A stretch of DNA of 64,000 nt, from contig NC_045148.1 of assembly GCF_008831285.2 (NCBI RefSeq), forward strand, positions 2,170,001 to 2,234,000, given 5' to 3'. Shown one piece after another: positions 9,262-58,489 of the stretch. The notes beneath the pieces are model-generated. The model worked only from the letters and a program-made list of their open reading frames with translations, searched no databases and had not been told where the DNA came from. The DNA comes from Nymphaea colorata (taxonomy: Eukaryota > Streptophyta > Magnoliopsida > Nymphaeales > Nymphaeaceae). A program made the position numbers and the translations under genes. Position 1 is the stretch's first letter. Every line of letters starts with the position of its first letter.

Positions 9262-12200
9262 TCAACGGGGCCGGCCTAATCCAAAACTAGCTTCAGACTG
9301 CTGTTGGTGAGGCTGCTGCACAAGTTCAGCAACTGTTATGCTCTTAACTAGGAAGCAGACTTGGTAATGTCAGAAACCATTAACCCAAACATGAATGAGA
9401 ACTTGATTAACAAGAGTCATGCCGTGATGAAAGGACACCATGAAATATGAGCATTTTAACATCCAGATAAAAGGTTGACAATTCAAGTGTGAAGGGGGCA
9501 GGTGAGCATGTGGGCTGAGTTAGGGGCTTGTGTTAGCTTCACGTGCTTCTAAGAGAAATGAAATTTAATAGTCAAAGCTGCCTCAGGTTTCATCCATGGA
9601 GGTTCAAACAAAAATACCCACCTCACCTACTAAAAAAAAGGAAAAAAGGGAAAGGTGCTAAATCACATTATTGTCTAATAGACATCTGATAGGACGAATC
9701 AACAGCCAAAACTAATATCACCAACAACAGAAATGTGATTCCGATTACATACACAAGCTGGAAGAAAATTTACCACTAATAAAAGGAAAGCATTGACCAA
9801 CACCTAGCGGCATTCAAGAAAAAGTGTTTGAAGGTACTGGTGTTTCAGTAGTGGAATATACTCTTAATAGCGTTCAGCAAAAGCCCAAATCATTAGTCAC
9901 ATTTATGATATACTCATCTACTACTACTAGACGTCTGAATATAGTTGGAGATCATAATCAGCAAAAACCTTGTACCTGTGGAAATGGTTGGTGAACAGAT
10001 TCATGCTGATTTAGAAATGGCAATCCAGGACGCGGACAAGCATACTGAGATGACTGCAGATAGATGGCAGAAGAAGAATGTCCTCCCACATGGGGAGGAT
10101 TGAAAGGAGTCATCATGCCATCATGGGGAGCATAATTTATTGCCGTTGTAGATCCAGTTGCTGCCCATGGTCCACGAGGATGCTGAGTAACTGCTCTAGG
10201 TGCATGCTCCATAGGAATCTGAGGCCTAAGGGATGCAGCTCCAAGCTGGGGGAACTCGGTATTGTAGTTAATCGCTGGAGAATACATAGGCTGTATGGTG
10301 TAGGGCCCAGAGGTGAAGCCAAAACCAGGGTCAAATCTCTGCATGTACCTACAAATTAATTCCCACACCTCACTTCAACTTCAGCACAGAAATATGAAAC
10401 GCCAACAGTAGAAATTTCTATCAACCTCATGCTACTCCCATCAGTGACCACCATAATAACAAGAGAGAACCTAACATGAACCTTTAAATCCATGTCAAAA
10501 GTCGAGTAACCCGAAAAGAATAATCTTCTAAATCCATGTCAGTGAAATGAATAATGTTGCTTCATTTGCATGCTTTTCATCACAAAGTTCCTGCTGCTAT
10601 TCCGGGTCCCCTCCTTTTTCCACTATGAAGATGAAACTACCACCAACCACTAAAAACCGAAAGACTAGCTATCTTAATTGCAGTTCAATTGCAGAGATTC
10701 ATTCAGGTAACCAACCTTGACAACAAAAGCAACTTTCAGGCCACACAAAGCAGTTGGATTGATCTGGCACAGGACTATACCAGCTTCTAATAAAACATAA
10801 GCACTACATGCAATTAATCATTCACTAAAAACTTTTGCAGCCAGGGTAACCTTCACTTTGTGTAGGTTCAGATTTTAAACTCAGCCCAATATCCATGCTT
10901 AGTCGAATATTAAAATAATATAGATAAGAAACATTGATACCAAAAAAGCTTAACATTTTTCTTGTTTTCATCAGAACCACCAGAAAAAGAAGAAACTCCC
11001 TCATATCCACCTCAACTAGAAAAATAAGAATGACATAAAGTGATGCCATTTAACAGCAAACACTAGAACTAAGCATTAAGTTGTGCAATCCCCAATCCAT
11101 CTAGAACAATTAGATGTCCCCTGGTAGTTAAAGCCAAAAATAAAGTCGAAAGAGGAGGGGGAAGAAGGAAATCTGAGACTTCATCCATTAACACACTTAC
11201 CTATCATAACTACGATCATAATCAGGATCCTTCCGGTCAAGGTCCCGATCTCTGAAAATGGCCACTCTGCTGTTTGGCTTCGACCTACCAACAATTTCTT
11301 TGTCACTTCTGTTCCGATTTGACCTTGCACCACCCAAAGAAGATTCACCTAAGCCTTTCCCAGAGTTAATTTCCGAGCCCTCAAACAAAGTTTTCTCCTC
11401 CACCCTAGTCAATGAAGGGCTATGTTGTGAACTCTCTGAGACAGCTTGATCACTTTCAGACTTTGCCCCAAAGCTGCTACTATTGTTGTGGCTAAATATC
11501 CTTGCACGGGCTTTATTGTACTCCTCCTTCCTTTCTTCAACGCTTCTCAGATAATTTGCCTTGGAAGAATGATGGCTTGTGTTGCTAAAGGACTGGACCA
11601 ACTTCTGAGGGCGCTGTTTGATGGCCACCTTGACCACCTTACTGTTGTCATCTTGTGGTAGATTTACAGGTATATCAGCCAGCCGAACTAGAGGAAGCCT
11701 GGAACCAGGTATTTTACGTAATACAATCTTAGAACCAGAACTGTCAGCTAAGTTATTGTCCAACACAACCATTGATTGAAGATAGTAATGTTGGGCAATC
11801 CGATGGGCCGCCAATCGCAGGTAGGATGTAGGAAGCTGCTGAAATTCAAGTTGTTGTTGCCTAGGGTCATGGATGAACTTCTCAACGTCTTGCTCCATAC
11901 GCAGAACTATAAAAAAGAACCTTAATTAACATAAAAAAAGCACAGAAAGAGCAAGAGAGAGAAAAGGGGGAGGAGAGAGAGAGAGAGTATTGTAACATTA
12001 CTAAAGCATGTCCAACACTGGTTGGAACATGTAACAAACACACATGTCAGCAAGAGAACATCGAAACAAGCAACCACATAAAAGACTAAAAAAAAGGAAG
12101 ACGAGTGGCAAGAAAAGGATGAAACACATTTCCAGATCCTAACTAGGATGACATGAAGAGTGGATGGACGGCATGCCGTCCTACATAGAAAGCGTATAAT

Positions 12201-25761: not shown

Positions 25762-26931
25762 TCAATTGTATATGGTTACAGGAGGGATTTTAAACTTGGA
25801 GTCCCTAAGAAATGGCACAGCTTCTGGTTGTTCAATCAAATCCCTATAGAACGCATACTCTGCCTCGTAATCGTGCAAATGGAGCTCAGCTTTCTGGTTC
25901 GTGTGGTAGTGATGCTTCGCATCAACTGATTTACCAAACCCGAAAACGTCGACCTTCTCACACACACCCAATGCAAGCATGATTGCTTGCATACCCGATG
26001 AGTAATGGAACAAGTTTCCATCATGGGCAACACTCCATTCTTCAAGGGACTTCCCCGTCGTCTCCACAAATCTTTTCAACGAGTAGTACTTCACAATCCT
26101 GGAACACAGCGTGTCGAAACGGGCATCTGTGATGACCAATGGAGCCTTATGAGTTCGGTTGCAGTACTGGAAATCCATGAAATGCACTGCCTGGCAAATG
26201 TACATAACCATGGGGACGTTTTCTCCATATGGGTGGCAGAAGCAACTGGGTCTCCTTGAACAGAGATGCAAGATGTTACTGTTAACGAACGAAATCGTGG
26301 TTTTCGAGCCAACATTTCGCTGGAATCCTTCAGTCCTCGCATTGTTCAATCTGACCACCATTTCATGGCTATCTATCAACTCCCCGTATTCTTTCTTCAG
26401 CAGAATCCCGCTGTTCCCCACAACCGCACATGATGCATACGGTCGGTTTGTTGGAACTGAACCATAATGCCGATCAAGAGGGCCCTTAACAAGTGACACC
26501 AACTCACTCATGATCTCAGGCTGAAACCGCTTTTTCATCACCCAATTGCGCAGAGATTGACGAAATTCCGGCCATAGAGCGCTGTACCTGGGGTTCATGA
26601 GCTGTACCGGAATTCGACTGGGCCGCACATACGTTCCTTCATGGTTATCCTGCCGCCACGAAGAGATGGATCGAGGGCGGCCCTGACGATGAGTCCACTC
26701 GAGCATATCGTTGATCTGACGCCGAGTATCTGACTCGCCGATCTCAATAGCAGCATAGGTCAGGAAAGTCTCATTCAAAGCAGGAAGAGGCAAAACATCT
26801 ATGCCAGATGCAGGTCTGGCTTCCAGAGTAGCAGAAATGGAACTCCGGCGAATCACAACACGCGAGGCCAGCACAGTGCAAACAACAATTAGCAGAAAGA
26901 CGCTGAGGAGGGGCCGGATTGGTCGTTTCAT
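25762..26931 (-). CDS. sialyltransferase-like protein, GT29 (SIA1/MGP2 type)
   Basis: A single uninterrupted coding exon of 389 aa. It is a type II Golgi protein: short basic cytosolic end (MKRPIR), membrane anchor at about 8-22, stem, then the GT29 catalytic domain. Sialylmotif L spans about 165-210 (SCAVVGNSG, then VRLNNA); motif S spans about 305-335 (FHYSSGMQAI, then DVFGFGK); motif III is HHYHTNQ at 340-346; motif VS is HDYEAE at 353-358. Potential N-glycosylation sites are N53 and N258. The N-terminus MKRPIRPLLS and the C-terminal FKIPPV resemble Arabidopsis SIA1/MGP2 as I recall it, rather than SIA2. Plants lack confirmed sialic acid; family members act on pectin or arabinogalactan glycans and matter for pollen tubes. 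The ATG at 26931 is preceded directly by a pyrimidine tract and TTACAG, as expected of a 5' UTR intron acceptor. An in-frame ATG at 27054 would add 41 residues but would displace the anchor from the N-terminus. Confidence 0.93.
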   Translation of the reverse strand: MKRPIRPLLSVFLLIVVCTVLASRVVIRRSSISATLEARPASGIDVLPLPALNETFLTYAAIEIGESDTRRQINDMLEWTHRQGRPRSISSWRQDNHEGTYVRPSRIPVQLMNPRYSALWPEFRQSLRNWVMKKRFQPEIMSELVSLVKGPLDRHYGSVPTNRPYASCAVVGNSGILLKKEYGELIDSHEMVVRLNNARTEGFQRNVGSKTTISFVNSNILHLCSRRPSCFCHPYGENVPMVMYICQAVHFMDFQYCNRTHKAPLVITDARFDTLCSRIVKYYSLKRFVETTGKSLEEWSVAHDGNLFHYSSGMQAIMLALGVCEKVDVFGFGKSVDAKHHYHTNQKAELHLHDYEAEYAFYRDLIEQPEAVPFLRDSKFKIPPVTIYN

Positions 26932-27640
26932 CTGTAACAGGCTGAAGGGGAAGAACGTATGGGTGTTAAAGGAATGGAAGAAAACCAAAAGGATGGAAAA
27001 GGGTCCACCGAACTCTAAGCGAAAGCCTCGCCATTCCCGCAGGAGCTCTTGCATCAAATCTATAGACAAAGAAAACGGGGTTCTGGTGGTATTCCCTTCA
27101 AAGAAACGGGACCATAAACCAGAGAGAGAGAGAGAAAGAGAGAGAATAGGAAAGAAAAAAAAAAAACTCAGAAACAGCTCAAGGCTAGAGAGGGACAACC
27201 GCAGAAAGAGAGACAGGGAAGCGAAAATGAAAAAAGGAACTCCAACACAGCAGAAACCTACAAAAAGGGGAATCCCCAATGGGCGAGCGAGAGAGACATA
27301 GGTCTCAGAGGCAAACTAGAAACACAACATCCAGCTCAAAATCACTGCCGTTACCACATTTAACAAATCAAATTCGCACAACACACAACAACCCAGAAAA
27401 GGAAAAAGAAAAGCAACGAGAGAGAGAATAGGAAAAGAAAGAAAAACCAGCTCCCCACCTCACCCCTCCTTCTCTCCCCTTCCCCACGACCAAAAGGAGC
27501 CAACACCCAATCAACCTGCCTGTCTTCAACAGATTATCCCCTCCGTTTACAAGACGAGATCTAGAACGATAAAGATCTCTCTCTCTCTCTCGCTCCTCTC
27601 TTAACAGGCTTCTTTTCCTCTGAAACCCCAATCATATAGC
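26932..27640 (-). promoter_or_regulatory. GT29 5' UTR/promoter side with probable leader intron
   Basis: CT-rich on the minus strand (GAGAGA tracts on plus at 27121-27147 and 27410-27430), typical of plant leaders. The string TTCAGCCTGTTACAG abutting the ATG looks like a 3' splice site. I did not fix the donor; GTAGGT near 27263 is one option. Confidence 0.4.
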
Positions 27641-36508: not shown

Positions 36509-36772
36509 CTAGGGTTTGTGAGCCTTGTTTGTGTTGCCATTGGCGAAGCGGTCGCTGGAACCAGCGCTCGGGTCCAGACTGAGTCCCAGGGCGAGGCTCG
36601 GGCTGGGTCCAGGGTTAGGGTTTGGGCTCGGCTTGTGGACCCTCTGCTTCTTGAGCTCGGTCAGTAGAGCCTGCCTCTCCTGGTGCAAGAGGATGGCCTT
36701 CTTCCTCAGTCTCTCGTTCTCCTCCACCATGTAACGATTCTGCAGGTACAGCTTCAGGTTCAGCCTCTCCAT
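36509..36772 (-). CDS. LITTLE ZIPPER (ZPR) protein
   Basis: 87 aa starting MERLNLKLYLQN, the hallmark start of ZPR3/ZPR4-type proteins. Residues 4-43 form the leucine zipper with the ENERLRKKA core and QALLTELKKQ. The tail is Pro/Asn/Ser-rich and disordered. Known role: a microprotein without DNA-binding domain that pairs with HD-ZIP III factors (REVOLUTA, PHABULOSA) through the zipper and blocks them, limiting meristem and adaxial programmes; it is itself induced by HD-ZIP III. An acceptor (GTTACAG at 36783-36789) lies 10 nt upstream of the ATG, so at least one exon precedes it. Either that exon is 5' UTR (ZPR3/4 style) or it adds an in-frame N-terminus from about 37163-37344 (ZPR1/2 style), giving about 151 aa. 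Confidence 0.9.
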   Translation of the reverse strand: MERLNLKLYLQNRYMVEENERLRKKAILLHQERQALLTELKKQRVHKPSPNPNPGPSPSLALGLSLDPSAGSSDRFANGNTNKAHKP

Positions 36773-37162
36773 TGATGACCACCTGTAACGTTGTTATAAT
36801 ATAACGTTAAAAAAGAGGAACGTTAAAATCACGTCGATTTCTGGCCTGTACCCAATACGCGGCTCGTAAAGATATGCAAGTAACGTCGACAAAGGGGAAA
36901 CCAGAAAAATCATACCAAGCATATGAAGAACGAAAAATCTTTCAGTAAGACCGTAAGTTCAATTTAACGTTATTTTGAGGGAAATATCGGCAGAATAACG
37001 TTTTCTAAACGGCTCTGAGCCACCCATCTCAAGATGGACGGCCGAAGGAGGGGGGAAAGAACTAAGAAGGAAGCTCTCTATCCACTATAAAGCGTGCATC
37101 TCAAAAGATGGAAGGATCGATAAGAGAGAGGCAGAGAGAGAGAGAGAGAGAGAGATTGAGAC

Positions 37163-38221: not shown

Positions 38222-41200
38222 TCAATGTACGTTGGCAGTACACTGGTTCAGACCCCAAGATCTAGTCAGCCAGACCCGATCTGCTACAACTGATTCGTCG
38301 TAGTCGTTGCGGTGCCATGTCCACCCGGCGTGGGTGTCGTTCTCCACCTGCAGCAGTCCGTGTCCAAAGCTTGCTTCCCTGAAGACTGACCATTCCGGTT
38401 TCGGATCCATAAACCTAGAGAGAGAGAGAGAGAGAGAGCACATCAGAGGTCCGGTCTAAATTGAATCCAGTCCAGTAAAAGTTTGATCCGGCTAAAAAAT
38501 TTTATGCTAAAGTTTGGACATGTGTGATGATGCTTAAACAAGTGTGTGGTGATCTCAAGTCTGAGAGTCTCTGAGCATCTTTGATCTCTAAGATGGAAAG
38601 TTTGTGAATGGGGATCGAAGTTTGCATCCGTTTAGTTAGATCTGGTGAACAAATTTAGATCCAATACTTAACTAGATTCAGATACAGTTTGCAGTTTCAT
38701 GATTGAATCTAAATTCTGGTCCTATTTCTGGTTGGATCCAACAAAGATTTGATCCAATTTCATATGATTAACGGATGCAAATTCAGTTTTGAGAAAATCT
38801 ACTCAGAATTTGAGCCCGATTACATAGAATTTGATTAGTAAAATCTGATCCTAACGGCTTACTTCCCAACCTGATCTATTTAAGTAGTGGGCAGGGAGAT
38901 GATGCTTACTCTGTTGCTAGGCCTTCTCTGTTGCCACCATCTCCAATGGTGATGTGCACAGGGCCGCAGCTGTCCAATGTTCCATTATACACTCGATCCT
39001 GTGATCAACAAAAGAGACGCATCAGCAATTCAATTAAGATCTTCATGTCAACGCGATTACCATCTTTTCACTTCATATAAAACCAGCCAATTGTCTGCTT
39101 TCGTGTTGTATATCAGTGAAAGATGAAACAAAGCGATGGTGGCATTAGGCATTTGTCTACTGAAATTGTGGAGTTGCTCGAGTAAGAATAATCTCATTGC
39201 CAACCACCATTTAATGGCAGTAACAAGATGCCAAAGCTTCTTTTTCAGCAATGGAGAGGAAAGTGCCACAGAGAAAGTGTTGTATGCTGCATTGTCAGAA
39301 AGGCAAATTAATTGGAAGAAACTTGCAGAAGAGTTCGGCGCTCGCCTCCTCGAGCTGTTGTTGAGGGAGTGGAACAGCAGCGTTCCAAGATAACGCACGC
39401 AGAGGCAGTTCAGCTGCTTTAAAGAACCAGATCAGTACTGCTGCTGCCTTAAAGAGCGACAGATTGTACTGGCATCGCCGAAAAGTATGCCGCTGCTTCT
39501 TTCACTAGAGTGGTTGACATATGGCATGTGTGCAGCCGCATTAAATTTCTTTCACCAATATGTTCTATTGGCGTTTTTACTTGCAGTGGCCCGAAGGCCT
39601 GTGATCACGATTTAAACCATAACCAGCACGACCTTCAGCAGCATTTTCTGTGCACTATAAGTTCTGTCACTAAAGGTTTCACTGACGTTCTTTCCCTCTA
39701 GAGAATTAATGAAATACTTGTAGTTTGTAGTTACATTTTCAATGTAAAGAACATTATACAACTGTTATTAAAAGGTGTTTTATGAATCTATCCCAACTTT
39801 ATGAAACAATGAAAAACTATTTCATTTGTCAAACAAGTCATACATAGTGACAACAAGAATATTTTATGAATATACCCTAAAGATGTAGGATAACATAGTG
39901 ACAACAAGAATATTCTATGAATCTACTCTAAAGATGTACGATATTCATTGTTTTTTAATGAATTTATAAACTCACAAAGTGTTCTTGCTATCAAACAAGC
40001 TTTTAGTGTTACAATTGGGCCGGACTAAAACTATCACTCAATAAAGGACTTTTTTTCCTAGTATTTTCATGGTTTCGTCCAATACGAAAGCTTGCTTTTC
40101 CTTCTTATTAAGTTCAATCCGACGATTAAATCTGCTTTACGGGCAAATATGTTTGTAAAACGATCTAACAAGTTTTGGTTTACTTTGATCGTGATCTCCA
40201 TGAACTCTAAAAGTTGCCTATACCGATCTTGATTCAAGAAAAGATTTGTTAGGGAACTTACAGTGCGTTCATAGGCATGGACATGCCCTGCAAACACGAC
40301 ATCCACATGTGCATCATAGAGCAGACTCTCCATTGCCACCCTCATGTCCTCTCCTTCTCCTTGGTGAGCACTATTAGAATTGTACCATGGTGCATGCAGC
40401 AGAGCTACCAGCCAAGGTGTTCTCTCCCTATCGACGTTAGCCAAGTCAGCTTGAAGCCACTTGTACTGGTCCGAGCCGATTTCGAAGTCGGCGTACGAGC
40501 CGAGCATGACGATGTGAACACGTGGCATGTCGAATGAGTAATAGAGATTGGAGGTTGAGTTGCTCTCTTCATACGGCATTCGCCACCTAGCATTGTAGGA
40601 TTTGAATGGGTGTCTGGTGATAAGTGGGATCTTCTCAATCTCATGGTTGCCTTGAGTCACCATCCATGGCCGACTGCTGGACAGTGGCTCGACCAGGAGC
40701 CCAAATGAGTCCCACAGCGGCTGGTAAGTGTCGGCATAAGACAAGTCACCAGGGAGGAGCAGCACATCATAATTAGATTCTGCAATGTGTTGGAGTGTTG
40801 AGTGGGTCCATTCAGTCTGGCCCAAGTCACCTGCATTTTGGTTCCATGTACAAGCCATTAGAGAAATTTGGTAGTAATCCATTTCAGAATCTAGAGTTAA
40901 AAATTATGTTCTAAATCAAGACTCTATGATCTAAATCGAATTCATGGTCAAGTGAATCTGAATGGCATTTTTTTCTCTGTAATTTGCTAATGATCTAGAG
41001 TGGGAGTTTACCTTCTTTCTTTCTGTAGTATTTAAGTTTCATTGAAATACTACCCTGAAAGCAGTTTTTAGAAAATCCAGAACGAGTTTTGAGAATCGAA
41101 TTAAGCCAATGGAAATATCTTGTTGCTGTAACTCATAGAATTATAGAGAGAGATGCGGAAATTGGTAGCAACTTCTCCTCTTTCACCTACCTGATACTGC

Positions 41201-41800
41201 AAACTTGATGGGCAGCTGAGCAGGTGGAGTTTTTAAGCTGTACATTTTGTTTGGAGCACCACCACAACGATAATAGTAGATCGTATCTGGATCCAAGGGG
41301 CCAATAACTACGTTGTGTATTTGACCGGATTTGTAGAGGAAGTAGCGATACGTAGAAGTATCTCCGGTTGCAGATCTATCAAAGGCCCATGGAGACGTGC
41401 CATACTCTACTAAAGCTAGAGAATCATCATTTGTAATCCATGAAATTCTCATGCTGTCTCTCCCAACCAAGGATATATGGACCTGAACATGTTTCCAACT
41501 GTTATTATTCATATGTAATAAGAAAAGCGAAATTTAGAAACCAGAAATCTATCAATATGATGTCAGCTTGACAAAATTTCATGAGTCCATTTCATACTTC
41601 TTTGCGGTAGATCAACAAACACAACAAAATTATCTACTTGATATAAAACCAGAGATTTAATCAGCACATCCATCACTTACCTGCTGCTCTCTTTGGCTGT
41701 GTATGAGTGTAGATATGCATAATAGTTAAGCATATTGTGTTGATTTTGACATTTCTACTTTTTCCAAGATCCAATTGTTTGATTTTATTGATCGTGCAAG

Positions 41801-41898
<98 letters not shown>

Positions 41899-42315
41899 GA
41901 GCTACATGTGGGGCTTGTATGGGCAGTTAATCACACAGTCGCACCAAATTTCTTTGTTTAAGGGTTGGTTGACCCCAAACATGTGCATATTTATATATTC
42001 TTAATATATAGTTCCCCTCAATCATTTTGCTACGGACTTGAAAGGTCCAAGTCCTTTTGAATTAGTGCCCTTTAGCCCGCCACTGTAAGTAAATGCGAAA
42101 ACCACATAAAACTGGTGAGAGTCATCCCATCAACTTCAAAGGTAGTTGACAATGTAACATATAAAGCTATATTTTCACAATCAAAGGCGCAGTTGTCGCT
42201 CACTCCTTTGAAAAAATGACCTTTTACATCTTGTTTTGGGTACAGTTAATTAAGTTGATTCAACAACCTATATCGAGTTCACATATTCAACAATACATAT
42301 TTCATGAAGACTACA

Positions 42316-42388
<73 letters not shown>

Positions 42389-43976
42389 CCTGCAGTTGAA
42401 AATTTCAACTACCTCTCACCCACACAAATGGAAATAAAACATGGACATTTGGCCAACATCGACGACCCTACTCATCCCTCATATGGTTGGCTTCCTTTCT
42501 TTTGTCATGAGCATTTTGGTTTTGTTTATAGTATTTGTTCAACTTGTACTTAGTTTTGGTAAGTATGCTCTGTTCTTCGGGGTTTCTTTTGGCAAATAAA
42601 GCTATATGTAACTTTTTTAAGGCACTTTAGTAAATGTTATATGTAACTTTTTTACATATATAGTTTCAAAATTAAGGCACTTTAGTAAATGTTATATGTA
42701 ACTTTTTTACATATATAGTTTCAAAATTAAGGCACTTTAGTAAATGTTTTATGAATGTACCTCAATTTTTTAGGGTAGCTAATTTATAAAACAATAACAA
42801 ACCTGAACGGGCCCTAAAGTTTAAACTAATGGTGCTTTATCGCCTGGCCGCAACTGTCCAGGGAAACGCCGTGCTCGACACAATTGTCTTGGACGTATCT
42901 GTGACTATAAAAGAATAAAGATTAAAAGCTCAGGCTCGACAGAAAACAAAAGTATACCATCTTTATTCGCTTCACTAGAGTCGGCAATTACTTTTAGAAC
43001 TTGAAAGAATAATACAGAAAGGTGCGAATCTTTACATCTGTTAATATGACAAAGCACTAGCAGGAAGTTTTATCCAATGGCAAATAAACAGCAAATAACT
43101 CAGAAACGTAAGACATATTTTGGAAATTTTGTAACCAAGGGGTGGGTCAGCAGATAGAGATCTCCCCAAGATTTTATATTTGAGAGAACAGCAGATCTGC
43201 TAATAAAGCGTGACGCCTCGTCCTGCTTTGAGGAACGACAATTTTGGCATCGTTTGATCATAATCTCTCTATGTTTCCAGAATCTGAGTCCTTGGTGTTG
43301 CAAGAATTGTATCGAAAAGGAGATCTCAATGGTAGCCATTGGAAATTTTGTCTTCGTGTTTTTGTCTCTGTGCTTCACTACACTCCAACCTGCCAAGCGG
43401 CACCCCCGTGACACCCTCTCCCTTCTTCTGGCCGCAAAAACGTAGTTAAGTCTCTTGTAACATTGAGATTTTGATTGATTCTGGTAAGTAGTACTATTCT
43501 TTCTTTCAACATATAAAGATGGCTTGTCTCTCCGTCTCTCATATGGTTCAGAGGATTTATTCTTCTGATTTCATTCTTCTCCTCAGAATTTGAAGGAACA
43601 GTAATACTCAAGCAACCTATCAACCAAAACTCAAAAACTATTTGTAAACCCCAACCGAGATGTTGATCAGACGCAGTGGGATAAGCTGTGAATGAGCGCA
43701 TAGGTTTAGAAGGCTACGAAGACAAACTCGAGCATCCAGAGTCCAGACGAGGAGAAACATTCAAACCAAGTTCTGAAATGTTTTCTTCTTAAGGGAAATA
43801 ATCTCCTCGACGATACAAGAACTAATTAAACAGGGAAACCTAACCTGTTGAGGAGAGGGATCATCATCATCGGCCAGTTTAACGGCAACGTTTTTCCGAG
43901 GAGGAGGGCGATCGTATCCCCACGAGAGTTGGAATATTCCGGCGACAGCCACCAGGAAGAGGATTCTAGAAAGCAT
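38222..43976 (-). CDS. purple acid phosphatase A, five exons
   Basis: Coding exons: 43845-43976, 41191-41482, 40262-40830, 38910-38998 and 38222-38414. All phases agree, giving 424 aa, usual for low-molecular-weight plant PAPs (PAP18/20/21/22 group). Signal peptide is about 1-20, then YDRPPPR. A fibronectin-like N-domain starts VHISLVG. All seven metal ligands are present: D143 (GDLG), D170 and Y173 (GDLSYAD), N203 (GNHE), H287 (LHAPWY), and H324 and H326 (GHVHAYER). N-glycosylation candidates include N232 and N336. PAPs have a Fe(III)-metal(II) centre and release phosphate from esters at acid pH in the wall, vacuole or apoplast, often induced by phosphate shortage. The C-terminus is QCTANVH with no retention signal. 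Donors are GTTAGG, GTAGGT, GTAAGT and GTAAGC. It is the inverted paralog of the gene at 53352. Confidence 0.95.
39842..39945. repeat. 51-bp tandem duplication in PAP A intron 3
   Basis: ACATAGTGACAACAAGAATA occurs at 39842 and 39893, each followed by a similar TATGAAT...CTAAAGATGTA stretch. Confidence 0.85.
41802..41899. repeat. (TA)n(GA)n microsatellite in PAP A intron 1
   Basis: About 24 TA units followed by about 24 AG units, in intron 1, about 320 nt from exon 2. Confidence 0.95.
42316..42385. repeat. (TA)n microsatellite in PAP A intron 1
   Basis: About 35 TA units with one CA interruption. Confidence 0.95.
42602..42749. repeat. 55-bp tandem repeat, about 2.7 copies
   Basis: GGCACTTTAGTAAATG recurs at 42621, 42676 and 42731, joined by TATATGTAACTTTTTT and TAGTTTCAAAATTAA; the period is exactly 55 bp. 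It lies in PAP A intron 1. Confidence 0.9.
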
Positions 43977-48936: not shown

Positions 48937-50010
48937 ACCATTGGAGACTAAAGTCAAGCTTGATATGCATGGCCGGACTTGTAGCTTGCGAATGCTCCTA
49001 TATGAATCTGATTTCACGATCCAAATTCGATTTTTTTAATTTACTATCTGAATTTGAATCTGAATGCAAATTTTAAACTGAATTTGACCGACTTTAAAAT
49101 GTAATGGCATCAGGTATATGATAATTTACTTAAAATTAAAATCGATTCAAAAATCTGAATTCGATCGGATATTTATGCATATATAGATCCGAATCCTATT
49201 GGATGTCATTTCTTATCAATATTAAATTTTTTACCATACCTGTTTTTTGTTTTTTTTTTTGGAACATTTTGATTGGCTATCTGATCCAAACCTGCCACAT
49301 TGAGATCTACGTTGGGGATGGATGCTGAAATCCAAAACGGTGGATTTCAGATCCCCTTGGATCTGAGATCTAAAGGGAATCAAACTCGACCTTTAAGCTT
49401 GGAAAACCCTGCAAATGACATGAGAATGCTAATAAGTAGTAGTTGGATTTAGTAAGAAAATGAATGCATAATTGCACTTACGGTACAAAAATATTTTCTT
49501 ACCCAATTTAATGGATATTGGATTTTCAGGGACACTCAAATCTACATATAAAAAATTTGATTATATATCCTCCTTTGCATTTACACTAAAATCTCAATCT
49601 TATCGCTATTGAACATAACTAATATCCAAATAATCGGAGGAGAACGTAACAGCTACATCAAATCCGCCATTCTCTGATTGTGATGTTTATGATGTGCATA
49701 ACGTATCGAGGAGTAGAACGCCTCCCTCTTAAAAGTTTCATCACGGCATCTGACCGTTTATTTGGATTTCATTAATATGCTAATTTAATTAAGAATCTTT
49801 ATCTTCACCTAAGAATTTGTAGCCTGAACGGCATTTCTTCGATCGTGCTTGTTATTCAATTTTTTATATTTTTTAGTTATTAAATTTGTTTTTGTGACCG
49901 GGTACATAAATTTCTTGGGTCATATGATATACTTGGAAGTGGGGAAGATTAGCACTCTCTCCCTCTCCTTATTCCGATTCTCCAACTTTGAATTTTTTTT
50001 TTTTTTCCAT

Positions 50011-50795
50011 ATGGTACATGGATGTTAGAGTCAGAATCCAACGATATTTTTAACTTTCAAATCAAGGATATTTTGTTATTTGAGCATTCACTAATCATCC
50101 TCCAGTGAACGCCTTTATTATTCTCGTAAACTCCAGGCTGTTTTCGGTGTCTTATGGTGATGTTTCGTTATATTTCAACTTGCATATCTATATCTTCTCT
50201 TTTTTATGGTACATGGATGTTATAATAAGAATCAACGGTTTTTTTAACTTTCAAATCAAGAACATTTTGTTATTTGAGCATTCACTAATCATCCTCCAGT
50301 GAACGCCCTTATTCTCATAAACTCCAGGCTTTTGGTGTCTTATGGTGACGTTTCGTTATATTTCAACTTGCATATCTATATCTTCTCTTTTATATGATAC
50401 ATGGATGTTAGAGTCAGAATCCAACGATATTTTTAACTTTCAAATCAAGGATATTTTGTTATTTGAGCATTCGCTAATCATCCTCCAGTGAACGCCCTTA
50501 TTATTCTCGTAAACTCCAGGCTGTTTTCAGTGTCTTATGGTGATGTTTTTGGTGTCTTATGGTGATGTTTCGTTATATTTCAACTTGCATATTTATATCT
50601 TTTCTTTTATATGGTACATGGATGTTATAATCAGAATCAATGGTATTTTTAACTTTCAAATCAAGAATATTTTGTTATTTGAGCATTCACTAATCATCTT
50701 CCAGTGAACGCCTTTATCCTCGTAAACTCCAGGCTGTTTTCGGTGTGATATTTTGTTATATTTCAAGTTGCATATCTATATCTTCTCTTTTATGA
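50011..50795. repeat. minisatellite of four units in A-B-A-B order
   Basis: Units of about 180-215 bp start at 50011, 50216, 50394 and 50611 (ATGGTACATGGATGTTA). Units 1 and 3 share GAGTCAGAATCCAACGATA; units 2 and 4 share TAAT-AGAATCAA-GGT and AAGAA-ATTTTG. So a two-unit block was duplicated. Unit 3 has an extra internal copy of GTGTCTTATGGTGATG. Confidence 0.9.
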
Positions 50796-53351: not shown

Positions 53352-53532
53352 ATGGCAAGGTGGGGCGCAGGCGCCCTTGTTACAGGGATAGTCCTGCTCT
53401 TAAGCATTCCATATGGGGCATTCTCTGCCGGCTACGTCCGACCTCCTCCTCGTAGTCTCGTCTCCGTTCCTCACCTTCATGGCAGCTCCCGACCACAACA
53501 GGTAGAATCTCTATCTCTCTCTCTCTCTCTCG

Positions 53533-53607
<75 letters not shown>

Positions 53608-54735
53608 TCTCTCTCTTTTCCCCCCTGTATATATATGGAGAACGTTTCTTGGTTCCTTTCTCTCTTGAATCGAATCTCATGCCAGAGAAAGGCGCAGACA
53701 GTCGACTTCCTCTCTCTCTCTCTAAAAATGAGAAGAAAAATTGAAATGTTCAATTGGAGATTCTATTTTATTGCGGCATTTTGTTTACTTTCTTTATGAA
53801 AGAAGAAGAAGAAGCCTTTTGCTACGTTCGATTCTTCATCCAGAAGGACGGTGGTTGGTTGCATCTGCATTTCATGAGATCTCCACGCAAAGAAAACTAG
53901 ATCCAACCAGTGCCAACGATAGGATTTTCATTTCATGCGGAACTTTCGACATGATATCCAAATCTGATAGCTTGCAAAAAACAAGTTTTGAATTATATTG
54001 GTTTTCACAGTTGCATTGTTCAAGCAGATGGCACTTCCAGCAATTGAACCTGAATCCCATCCCTTCATCACAGATGTTATATCAGAGGCTGAGTCAGAAA
54101 ATTCTGGTTAAAAAGCATTCATTATCAAATTTTAAATTTGTAAAGGATACCAATATGTAAACAAGAAAATTTCTTTATTTGTAGGTATGTGTGGGCAATT
54201 GCCCACACGGTATCCACACTTGCCTCCCCCCCTAGTTATAGCTAGGACATATATGTACATGCCCCGTATTTAAGTTGTCTAAATATGCTGCCAATCGGAT
54301 CCGCCCAAGCCTAATACATCCAAAAGAACCAAACTAAAACCCATGTCCTCGAACCCTTTACGTCCATATACAAAACATGTTGGAAGATGATGTATCATTA
54401 TTTTATATATCAAACTATTATAAAAAACAGTCAATATCACGAACGCATCCTTGTTCGATTTTATACGTACGCTTGCAAGTTGGGGTATAGTTATTTGAGT
54501 TTTTTACGTTTCTTGACTGTCATTCTTTTACGACAAGCTATCTCAAGAAAGCATATGAGTATTGAGGCAGGTACTTACGAAGTTTGTTAAGGCACGAATA
54601 CGGTTAGATTTATATATTAGGTTTTTCTGTTAATTGTTAGTCATATGATTAGATAAAAAGAAAAAAAAAATGAAAGAAAGGGTGAAAAAAGTAGGAGATC
54701 AGTGAAAGATAAGATAATTAGTGCATGTGTTTGTG

Positions 54736-54809
<74 letters not shown>

Positions 54810-57800
54810 GCATTCTTCTCATATATACATATATATATGAGAGAGACAGAGAGTGTGTGATGCATTCTTCAAGTACCACTCTCATTTTAGGAGTGATACT
54901 TATAATTTGAAACTTTTTTTGAAAAAAAAATGCAAATTAATATGCATGTTTAAAAATATAGAAGTGGATAAAAATCAGGTTCTACTTTCTTAGACATGAA
55001 TATGAGCGTTAGAAAAAAATTAATCTATTGGTTTTAAAATCTCATCTACATATTTAAAACATACTACCGTTTTATAGATTGAAAATGTTCGCATTCATAA
55101 GGTGAATGATAAAGAACCTCGTTAAAATTTAATGTATGTCGAAATTAACCAGTATTACAATGAGACTGATTGAAGCCATTCCTCACAAGTCTCAAACTAG
55201 GGCTGCTTTTTCTCTCCTAGTCCCAGCTTAAGTCACTTATCTATGCAAACTGTAGATATTCTCCACATAAATGTGGAAGGTTGTTGGTTTTCTTTTCAAG
55301 CTGTTAGAAAGCATGGCCACAAATATTAATGAGATTTTGAAGTGCCCACGTTATATATTGGCAAAAACGCATGAACATTCTTCATGATCATTCCAATTCC
55401 AAAACGAGATTTGGTTTCTTCTATTGGATTTTTCGTTTCTGCAAAAAAAACTTGACGGTAACCTTTGTGAATTACCAACGGCTCCAATTCAATTCTCCTG
55501 AAATACAAGAAAATCCATAGAAAATGATCCAGAATGGATCTGGTTGCATTAATCCAGTGTTTATTTCGTAAAAGAACCTACTATATACAAGATAATACGA
55601 TCATTGGGCAGTGACAAAAAAAGAGAGAGAGAATAAAAATTATAGTTAAAAATGAGACAACTTAATGTTATGTGTGTGCAGGATTTTACTTGATCCATTT
55701 AATTTGTCTGAATCTGTAACAAAATTTCAGGTTCATATTTCATTGGTGGGGAGTGATCACATGAGGGTGTCATGGATCACGGAAGACAAGCATGCACCTT
55801 CAGTGGTAGAATACGGGAAGATCGCCGGAAAATACAGCCGCTCGGCCACCGCAGAAGATACGTCGTACCGTTACTTCTTCTACAGCTCCGGCAAGATCCA
55901 CCACGTGAAGATTGGGCCGTTGGATGCTGACACCACATACTATTACAGATGCGGAGGCGATGGGTCGGAACTCAGCTTCAAAACTCCACCCTCCGTCCTC
56001 CCCATCACGTTTGCTATCGTAGGTTGGTTCATGGCGCGCCACTTTCTTAAGGTCTGGCGCCGCGCGCCGGCCAAGGGTTCTTTCCCGACGGCCTGAACTC
56101 ATCATAAATGTGAAACGATTTTTTTAACCCAAACTTACAAATTCACCCTTAGATCTGTCTACCTGAATGTACGAAACAAAATTTTTAATTCTTTAATTTC
56201 GAATTTGTTTTGTCATGTAACATTTCTTTCTACAATTTTGATTTACTTTTGGCGTAAATGCATAATTGTACTCTTTTTTTCAGCCTAGAAGGTCATTTTT
56301 GTCATTCTAACCACCCAAACATGCACCAGAGTCGAACATACAACCAACTTTATTTGCACCATGCAGGTGATCTAGGTCAAACAGAGTGGACGGCTTCAAC
56401 TCTAGAGCACATAAAGAAATCAGACTACGATGCACTGCTTCTTCCAGGAGACCTCTCTTATGCAGACTGCCAGCAGCCTCTTTGGGACACATTTGGAAGA
56501 TTGGTGGAACCCTTAGCCAGCAGCAGGCCATGGATGGTAACCCAAGGCAACCATGAGATCGAAACCATTCCCATACTCTTTAACCATCCATTCCTATCAT
56601 ACAATGCCAGGTGGCGCATGCCGTACGAAGAGTCGGGCTCGACCTCCAACCTCTACTATTCATTCGACGTCGCCGGCATCCACGTCATCATGCTCGGATC
56701 CTACACGGACTTCGACAGCCGCTCCTCGCAGTACACGTGGCTGGAAGCTGACTTGGCCAAGGTTGATAGGGAGAAGACACCCTGGGTGATTGTGTGCTTC
56801 CATGCACCATGGTACAACACAAACACTGCTCACCAAGGGGAAGGGGAGAGCATGAGGAAGGCAATGGAGGCCATGCTCTACAATGCACGTGTCGACATGG
56901 TATTCGCCGGCCACGTGCACTCGTATGAGCGCTTCGTAAGTAGAACATCGAGCTCATATACTCTTTTTTTTTTTTTTTTGTTATAGAGCACTTATCCATG
57001 ATTACAATGATTTTGGACTACAACAATATGTGGTTTATTTGGAATATTGGTGATGAGATTCTTGGTTAGATTAGATAGTTAAAAATGATCAAATTGGCAT
57101 ATCTATAGTCTATCCAGGGTGGAGGCAAGTGTGAGCAATTGCCCGCATAAACTCGCAAAAAGTGTTTTTTTTTTTTTATTGAACTTTGTAATTGAAAGCC
57201 AAAGGCTCTTGAATTAATCAAACTGGCAGCATAAATTAGGGTTTCAAACCAAACAATCTCAACTCAGACATAAGATGCCAACTTCCTTGCACTGTCATGA
57301 TGGAATATAAGAGTATTCTGATAGTCACTGCAAGTAGTACTAAGCACAGACAAAACTTCAATGAAGGTTTATGGGAACTAATGTCTCTCTCTCTCTTTTT
57401 CTCAGACAAGGATTTATGACAATAAAGCTGACCCTTGTGGCCCAATCTACGTGACAATTGGGGATGGAGGCAACAGAGAAGGCCTTGCTCTAAGGTATTG
57501 TCCTACATTATGTCCACCTTCCCTCTCTCTCTACACATGCACATTTCCATACCCATGCATGTGGTCTTTCATTTGAATGTTTACTTTTTTGCTTGATATT
57601 GGTTGTCTGTATTTTCAATTTGTTGGGTGAGATGAAAGAATATTTCATTCTACTGCCCAACAAAAGAACCGAAGCTGGAATAATACCTGAACTGTTTTTA
57701 GTGCTTCCTGAAATCGTTGGATTCTTCAGTTTTGTTGCTTTTAACATTACAGAGAGAAAAAGAACATAATAAAAGGTTTTCTCCAAAGATGCACCTTTTC

Positions 57801-58116
57801 CTTGGCTAATATCTATTGTTTGAGAGTGCAGACAGTGGGAATCAGACATGCAAGTGTGTATGGTTCTCTTCTAAAGAATGAACTAAATGACATGCTCGTT
57901 CTCTTCTGGATTTGTAGTTTCAAGGATCCCCAGTCCCCTCTCTCTCTCTTTCGGGAGTCGAGCTTCGGCCATGGCCGTCTGAAGATACTGAACAGCACGC
58001 ATGCTCACTGGGAATGGCATCGGAACAAGGACGCCGACTCGGACGTGGGAGATGAGGTGTGGATACAGAACCTCCGCGTCTGCGTGGGAGCAAGACAAGC
58101 TAAAGACGAACTGTAA
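53352..58116 (+). CDS. purple acid phosphatase B, five exons, C-terminal KDEL
   Basis: Coding exons: 53352-53501, 55731-56022, 56367-56935, 57406-57494 and 57918-58116, giving 432 aa in consistent phase. Signal peptide is about 1-26, then YVRPPPR. All seven ligands are kept: D149, D176, Y179, N209, H293, H330 and H332, in GDLG, GDLSYAD, GNHE, FHAPWY and GHVHSYER. Exons 2-4 have the same lengths as in the paralog at 38222. The last exon differs: it extends further and ends RQAKDEL-stop, a canonical ER-retrieval signal that is not usual for this secreted or vacuolar family. It should therefore hydrolyse phosphate esters like its relatives, but may be kept in the ER. The ATG is the first in frame, after a GA-rich leader. 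Intron 1 starts GTAGAATC and turns into (CT)n(TA)n within 10-30 nt. Confidence 0.95.
53508..53604. repeat. (CT)n(TA)n microsatellite next to a splice donor
   Basis: CT repeat at 53508-53531, then about 36 TA units to 53604, starting 6 nt inside PAP B intron 1. Confidence 0.95.
54189..54208. mobile_element. element end with 20-bp perfect palindrome
   Basis: GTGTGGGCAATTGCCCACAC is its own reverse complement. Related sequences lie at 30637, 52599 and 57129, in several cases next to GAGGCAAGTGTG and CAAAAAGT(G/A)TTT, so this is a landmark of a repeat family rather than a lone palindrome. Confidence 0.6.
54738..54808. repeat. (TA)n(GA)n microsatellite in PAP B intron 1
   Basis: About 19 TA units followed by about 16 GA units. 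Confidence 0.95.
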
Positions 58117-58489
58117 AGCGCGATCGGGATCAAGTGATGTGTGACCAAGATCATGAACTTGCCAGGTTCTACTGGTAGTTAAAACGTTCCAGTTCGTGAA
58201 ATGGTTGTTTTTCATGTGGTGTCCAAATGTTCAACTTTCAGATAGCCAGTTCAGTGACGTCGTGGTTTATTTCTCAGCTTCATCGGAAATGGTTGCTACC
58301 AATTTTATGATACTTTTGTGATAACCTCTTGTCGTGTCGTGTGTATAAGCTAATTATCAGAAGCTCCCAATTGTCAATTGAAATCGTATTTTCTTTCGGT
58401 TGCTTATTCTTCTGCTTGTTAGTTTATAAAAAAAAGTTTTATGTTCTGAAAAGAAAATTAAGAAGCAATTTCTGGCTTTGAGATAAAAG

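Follow-up and report, generated by a model that had tools for sequence, protein, structure and literature searches.

A C-terminal KDEL on a purple acid phosphatase of Nymphaea colorata: an intact gene with predicted ERD2 retrieval

Work on the purple acid phosphatase (PAP) family has dealt for the most part with enzymes that scavenge phosphate outside the cell or in the vacuole. One of two neighbouring PAP genes in the DNA analysed here, PAP B, encodes a protein that ends in KDEL. The locus raises the question of whether this ending returns the enzyme to the endoplasmic reticulum (ER), serves its storage in vesicles, arose by chance or reflects a wrong gene model. The window denotes the whole stretch of 64,000 nucleotides, which has a G+C content of 38% and whose genes and introns mark it as plant nuclear DNA.

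Gene structure and domains of PAP B

PAP B is a five-exon gene on the + strand (53352-58116) encoding 432 residues with no internal stop codons. All four introns have GT-AG borders, and their phases are 0, 1, 0 and 2. The exons are as follows.

53352..53501, + strand: exon 1, start codon, predicted signal peptide and N-terminal stretch (gene model, hydropathy)
55731..56022, + strand: exon 2, PAP N-terminal domain PF16656 (gene model, Pfam)
56367..56935, + strand: exon 3, metallophosphatase domain with seven metal ligands (gene model, Pfam, alignment)
57406..57494, + strand: exon 4 (gene model)
57918..58116, + strand: exon 5, most of Metallophos_C PF14008 (to residue 413) and the C-terminal tail (gene model, Pfam)

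The three domains that identify a high-molecular-weight plant PAP are all present in the expected order: Pur_ac_phosph_N (PF16656, residues 48-135, E 3e-22), Metallophos (PF00149, residues 143-334, E 4.9e-21) and Metallophos_C (PF14008, residues 349-413, E 3.6e-22). The seven residues that we take to be the metal ligands (D149, D176, Y179, N209, H293, H330 and H332, in five motifs) match those of the Fe-Zn PAP chain 6ofd in the alignment and are shared with the neighbouring paralogue PAP A by motif positions. A preliminary description of this DNA had stated that all metal ligands are intact, and the 6ofd alignment and the motif positions agree with it. The solved structures nearest to PAP B are the purple acid phosphatases 6gja/6git and 6ofd/1kbp, presumably the wheat and kidney bean enzymes, respectively. 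Judged from its sequence, PAP B is a plant PAP with nothing essential missing. The N-terminus contains a hydrophobic core, LVTGIVLLLSI (mean Kyte-Doolittle value of 2.79 over 11 residues), which is the only hydrophobic stretch of the protein above the cut-off and fits a signal peptide, as assessed from hydropathy alone. A single N-glycosylation sequon (N392) occurs in PAP B, against three in PAP A. Two extra cysteines encoded in exon 3 (56367-56935), C182 and C291, lie near the ligands Y179 and H293 and are both absent from PAP A.

By length and intron number, and not by a tree, PAP B probably belongs to the high-molecular-weight Ib type. Subgroup Ib PAPs (the OsPAP21b, AtPAP18 and AtPAP20-22 types) resemble it in domains, metal ligands and the presence of neighbouring paralogues. 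Its 432 residues compare with 427-437 residues in full-length AtPAP18, 20, 21 and 22 (PMC5977197), and its four introns equal the four of tomato Ib-2 members, the number in Ib overall being 4-6 (PMC8879926). Whereas PAP B ends in KDEL, the Ib enzyme OsPAP21b of rice is reported to be secreted, with an additional Golgi-like dotted pattern (PMC5506657). According to the same paper, secretion had until then been demonstrated for no PAPs except those of subgroup Ia. Export as the Ib default would thus rest on the case of OsPAP21b together with signal-peptide predictions (PMC5506657, PMC5977197).

The neighbouring paralogue and the age of the pair

PAP A lies on the opposite strand.

38222..43976, - strand: PAP A, divergent paralogue of 424 aa ending in QCTANVH (gene model, Pfam)
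43976-43845, 41482-41191, 40830-40262, 38998-38910 and 38414-38222, - strand: exons of PAP A (intron phases 0, 1, 0, 2)

PAP A has the same three Pfam domains as PAP B, and the two genes are arranged head to head with their start codons (43976 and 53352) 9,376 bases apart; the paralogue reported earlier at a distance of 9.4 kb, ending in QCTANVH, corresponds to this gene. The lengths of the internal exons (292, 569 and 89) and the intron phases are identical in the two genes. The proteins share 63.1% identity over 412 aligned residues. Codon comparisons by the Nei-Gojobori method with Jukes-Cantor correction (own script) gave a pS of 0.711, a dS of 2.21 and a dN of 0.298 over 417 codons, and a dS of 2.37 and a dN of 0.257 in the 365-codon core. 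Synonymous sites are near saturation, and the duplication is thus old and undatable. The low dN/dS, a rough ratio with dS near saturation, suggests purifying selection and the retention of both PAPs as proteins.

A recent duplication followed by relocation was not accepted as demonstrated, because dS is near saturation. The earlier proposal that a local duplication was followed by a change of location in PAP B is not supported as it stands, the pair being old (63% amino acid identity, pS 0.711, dS ~2.2). The KDEL may have been gained in PAP B, lost from PAP A or gained long after the duplication. In tomato, 6 of the 18 PAPs occur in tandem pairs (PMC8879926), showing that local PAP pairs are not rare, and the loci of AtPAP20, 21 and 22 are closely numbered (At3g52780, At3g52810 and At3g52820; PMC5977197).

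The 2-kb stretches upstream of PAP B and PAP A contain no ERSE, ERSE-II, P-UPRE or UPRE-I, in the forms that we presume these ER-stress elements to have. Each PAP gene has one P1BS within 2 kb upstream (the window averages 0.44 per 2 kb), and W-box words number two for PAP B and five for PAP A. A search of viral contigs with PAP B yielded one pattern match and no confirmed relatives, and a search of prokaryote contigs with the alignment of PAP A and PAP B yielded 47 pattern matches and no confirmed relatives.

Further features were observed elsewhere in the window.

328-660, - strand: part of an acyl-carrier-type protein
11197-11898, - strand: part of an R3H/SUZ-domain protein
25762-27279, - strand: 505-aa open reading frame carrying a domain of glycosyltransferase family 29, sialyltransferase-like (PF00777, E 3.5e-39), with no introns across the domain
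36512-36793, - strand: short reading frame resembling a leucine-zipper protein, which we assume to be of the LITTLE ZIPPER type
49900-50780, between the PAP genes: several imperfect copies of a unit of ~200 bases, seen by eye; Tandem Repeats Finder reported here only a 22-base unit at 50522-50570

The C-terminal tail of PAP B

The elements at the end of the coding sequence are located as follows.

58084..58113, + strand: ten closing residues VGARQAKDEL, after C422 (counted back from the stop)
58102..58113, + strand: KDEL codons AAA GAC GAA CTG (sequence)
58114..58116, + strand: stop codon TAA (sequence)

The C-terminus before the stop reads ...VCVGARQAKDEL, with the closing residues VWIQNLRVCVGARQAKDEL. 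The preliminary description correctly gave the protein as ending in RQAKDEL through AAA GAC GAA CTG TAA. However, the span it assigned, 58105-58116, begins three bases late and takes in GAC GAA CTG TAA alone. Alignment of the two proteins showed that C422 of PAP B corresponds to C419 of PAP A. Past this shared cysteine, PAP B has ten residues and PAP A has five, with no clear similarity between them. The Pfam C domain of PAP B runs to residue 413, and its alignment to 6ofd to residue 418. Thus, the ten closing residues of PAP B should be exposed. The comparison of the two sequences indicates that the tail is probably a free and fast-changing end. The exact C-terminal K/HDEL by which soluble proteins retrieved by ERD2 are recognized is present at this end.

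Predicted retrieval by ERD2

On balance, PAP B may well be an intact PAP, probably of the Ib type, that is secretory, carries a functional KDEL retrieval signal and mostly stays in the ER or in vesicles formed from it. In the proposed mechanism, the signal peptide would take PAP B into the secretory pathway and be cleaved off, leaving an enzyme whose KDEL would sit on a short free tail past the last conserved cysteine. ERD2 would bind this tail in the acidic cis-Golgi, and COPI vesicles would carry the protein back to the ER. Most PAP B would then be kept at steady state in the ER or ER-derived vesicles and not secreted, and could serve in local phosphate release or as a stored hydrolase.

Since PAP B is presumably secretory and has an exact, free C-terminal KDEL, retrieval by ERD2 is the natural prediction and appears to be the most likely reading of the tail. 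The claim that PAP B is an ER-resident phosphatase stands in part: retrieval is predicted for a presumed secretory protein with an exact KDEL, whereas residence is one outcome, as the KDEL-cysteine proteases illustrate. Arabidopsis ERD2 keeps the residues that bind KDEL in the animal receptor (PMC7109254). The ER of animal cells is near neutral, at pH 7.2-7.4 (PMC7109254), and the working range of PAPs is pH 4-7 (PMC5506657), so that a PAP residing in the ER may have little activity. Also against a functional retrieval signal are the absence of KDEL from PAP A, the apparent variability, in two sequences, of the end past the last cysteine, the secretion of OsPAP21b and the lack of the four ER-stress elements upstream of PAP B. 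A YFP fusion of AtPAP2 truncated before its C-terminal membrane span was seen largely in the ER (PMC5977197). Thus, an ER signal alone is no proof of retrieval.

Alternative readings of the tail

A serious rival to plain ER residence of PAP B would be a stored acid phosphatase. The KDEL would act as in plant KDEL-cysteine proteases, concentrating the enzyme in ER vesicles from which it would later reach the vacuole, with removal of the tail, or be released at cell death; stored at neutral pH, it would be active only once in an acidic compartment. This is rather unlikely for PAP B: to our knowledge, PAPs are not known as cargo of vesicles of the KDEL-protease type, which counts against it, and the Pfam analysis found no extra pro-domain. 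However, the acid pH range of PAPs suits storage more than work in the ER (PMC5506657), and such a route is taken, independently of the Golgi, by the KDEL-tailed cysteine protease SH-EP (PMC9314129). Eight Arabidopsis beta-glucosidases also have KDEL tails, and some of them are the main contents of ER bodies (PMC9314129). Like PAP B, these enzymes (AtCEP1-3, SH-EP and BGLU18-25) are KDEL-ended members of secretory hydrolase families (PMC9314129), although the protease and glucosidase families are unrelated to PAP B. The KDEL-cysteine proteases are stored as pro-enzymes in ER-derived vesicles and sent to the vacuole, in which they lose the tail; they act in cell death, and the KDEL beta-glucosidases in ER bodies (PMC9314129).

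Similarly doubtful is the reading in which KDEL is the chance ending of a drifting tail, unselected and not conserved, which might be partly retrieved while PAP B is mainly secreted or vacuolar. It is consistent with the different lengths and sequences of the two ends past the shared cysteine (five residues in PAP A, ten in PAP B), in a comparison drawn from one genome. In 200 dinucleotide shuffles of the window, KDEL-stop occurred 0.05 times on average, and 10 of the 200 contained one or more somewhere in the six frames. Thus, such endings will turn up occasionally when many windows are scanned, and a single KDEL among very many scanned genes can be a chance product. For a named protein end, however, the odds are only ~1-2 in 100,000: the probability of a terminal KDEL is 2.2e-5 with a generic amino acid composition and 9.3e-6 with the composition of PAP B itself. 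For PAP B alone, KDEL by chance is unlikely. Across all six frames, the window contains no [KHR]DEL-stop other than that of PAP B. Moreover, binding to ERD2 would be expected of any secretory protein with a free KDEL, whether selected or not. The region around the tail (58060-58129) shares no words of at least 13 bases with the rest of the window, and two 12-base words that tie it to other places are at chance level. A copied-in origin of the tail was thus not found within the window.

It is very improbable that the end of the gene model is mistaken, for instance through splicing at the donor-like ACT/GTAAAG, with KDEL internal or absent in the real protein: the GT at 58113-58114 overlaps the stop codon and a similar donor, ACT/gtaagt, is in use at intron 3 of PAP A, but PAP A terminates at the homologous position of the corresponding exon and PAP B already has four introns, the number given for tomato Ib-2 (PMC8879926). 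The stop codon of PAP B lies within the last exon at the place homologous to that of PAP A, and the shared intron phases and internal exon lengths make the last exon and its frame secure by homology. An origin of the KDEL from a frame or splicing error was rejected, as the final exons of the two PAP genes align and their intron phases are the same. The other two frames at the end of PAP B, judged by eye, are unlike PAP. The donor-like ACT/GTAAAG itself (58110-58118) is weak and overlaps the stop codon; if it were spliced, KDEL would not be terminal.

Comparison with other ER phosphatases and with the PAP literature

Two other groups of phosphatases offer parallels to the predicted retrieval of PAP B. 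The MINPP inositol-phosphate phosphatases share with PAP B a KDEL-like ER signal, which is general in MINPPs (PMC7589363), and AtMINPP has been observed in the ER (PMC11354338). However, MINPPs are histidine acid phosphatases, of a catalytic class other than that of PAP B (PMC7589363, PMC11354338). The Toxoplasma Shelph phosphatase TgSlp also has a KDEL-like C-terminus (GDEL) and is located in the ER (PMC9769683), but it is a bacterial-like protist phosphatase and not a plant PAP. When TgSlp was tagged after GDEL, part of it was found outside the ER (PMC9769683), which calls for caution with PAP localisations obtained from C-terminal fusions. A PAP coding sequence without its stop codon was fused to GFP in one study (PMC7326820), and C-terminal PAP fusions were used in another (PMC5977197); such fusions would mask a signal of the KDEL type.

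No KDEL-tailed PAP was found among the matches listed in a search of open PubMed Central titles and the starts of abstracts, a scope outside which most subscription papers fall. Excerpts from several of the open-access papers mentioning both 'purple acid phosphatase' and 'KDEL' describe no PAP with KDEL. Software predictions place 4 of the 18 tomato PAPs in the ER, all four of them also extracellular (PMC8879926), and 8 of the 193 cotton PAPs (PMC12071487); neither survey belongs to the papers that contain both terms.

Significance

A wider reading, offered tentatively and less probable than retrieval of PAP B itself, is that a conserved KDEL has moved a PAP lineage lastingly to the ER or to vesicles derived from it, for work on lumenal phosphoesters or phosphoproteins or for storage towards cell death. 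If so, C-terminal fluorescent fusions would have concealed such members. If the tail works and is conserved, the PAP family would gain an intracellular, early-secretory compartment, and PAP B would provide a clear case of relocation through a few codons at the end of a protein.
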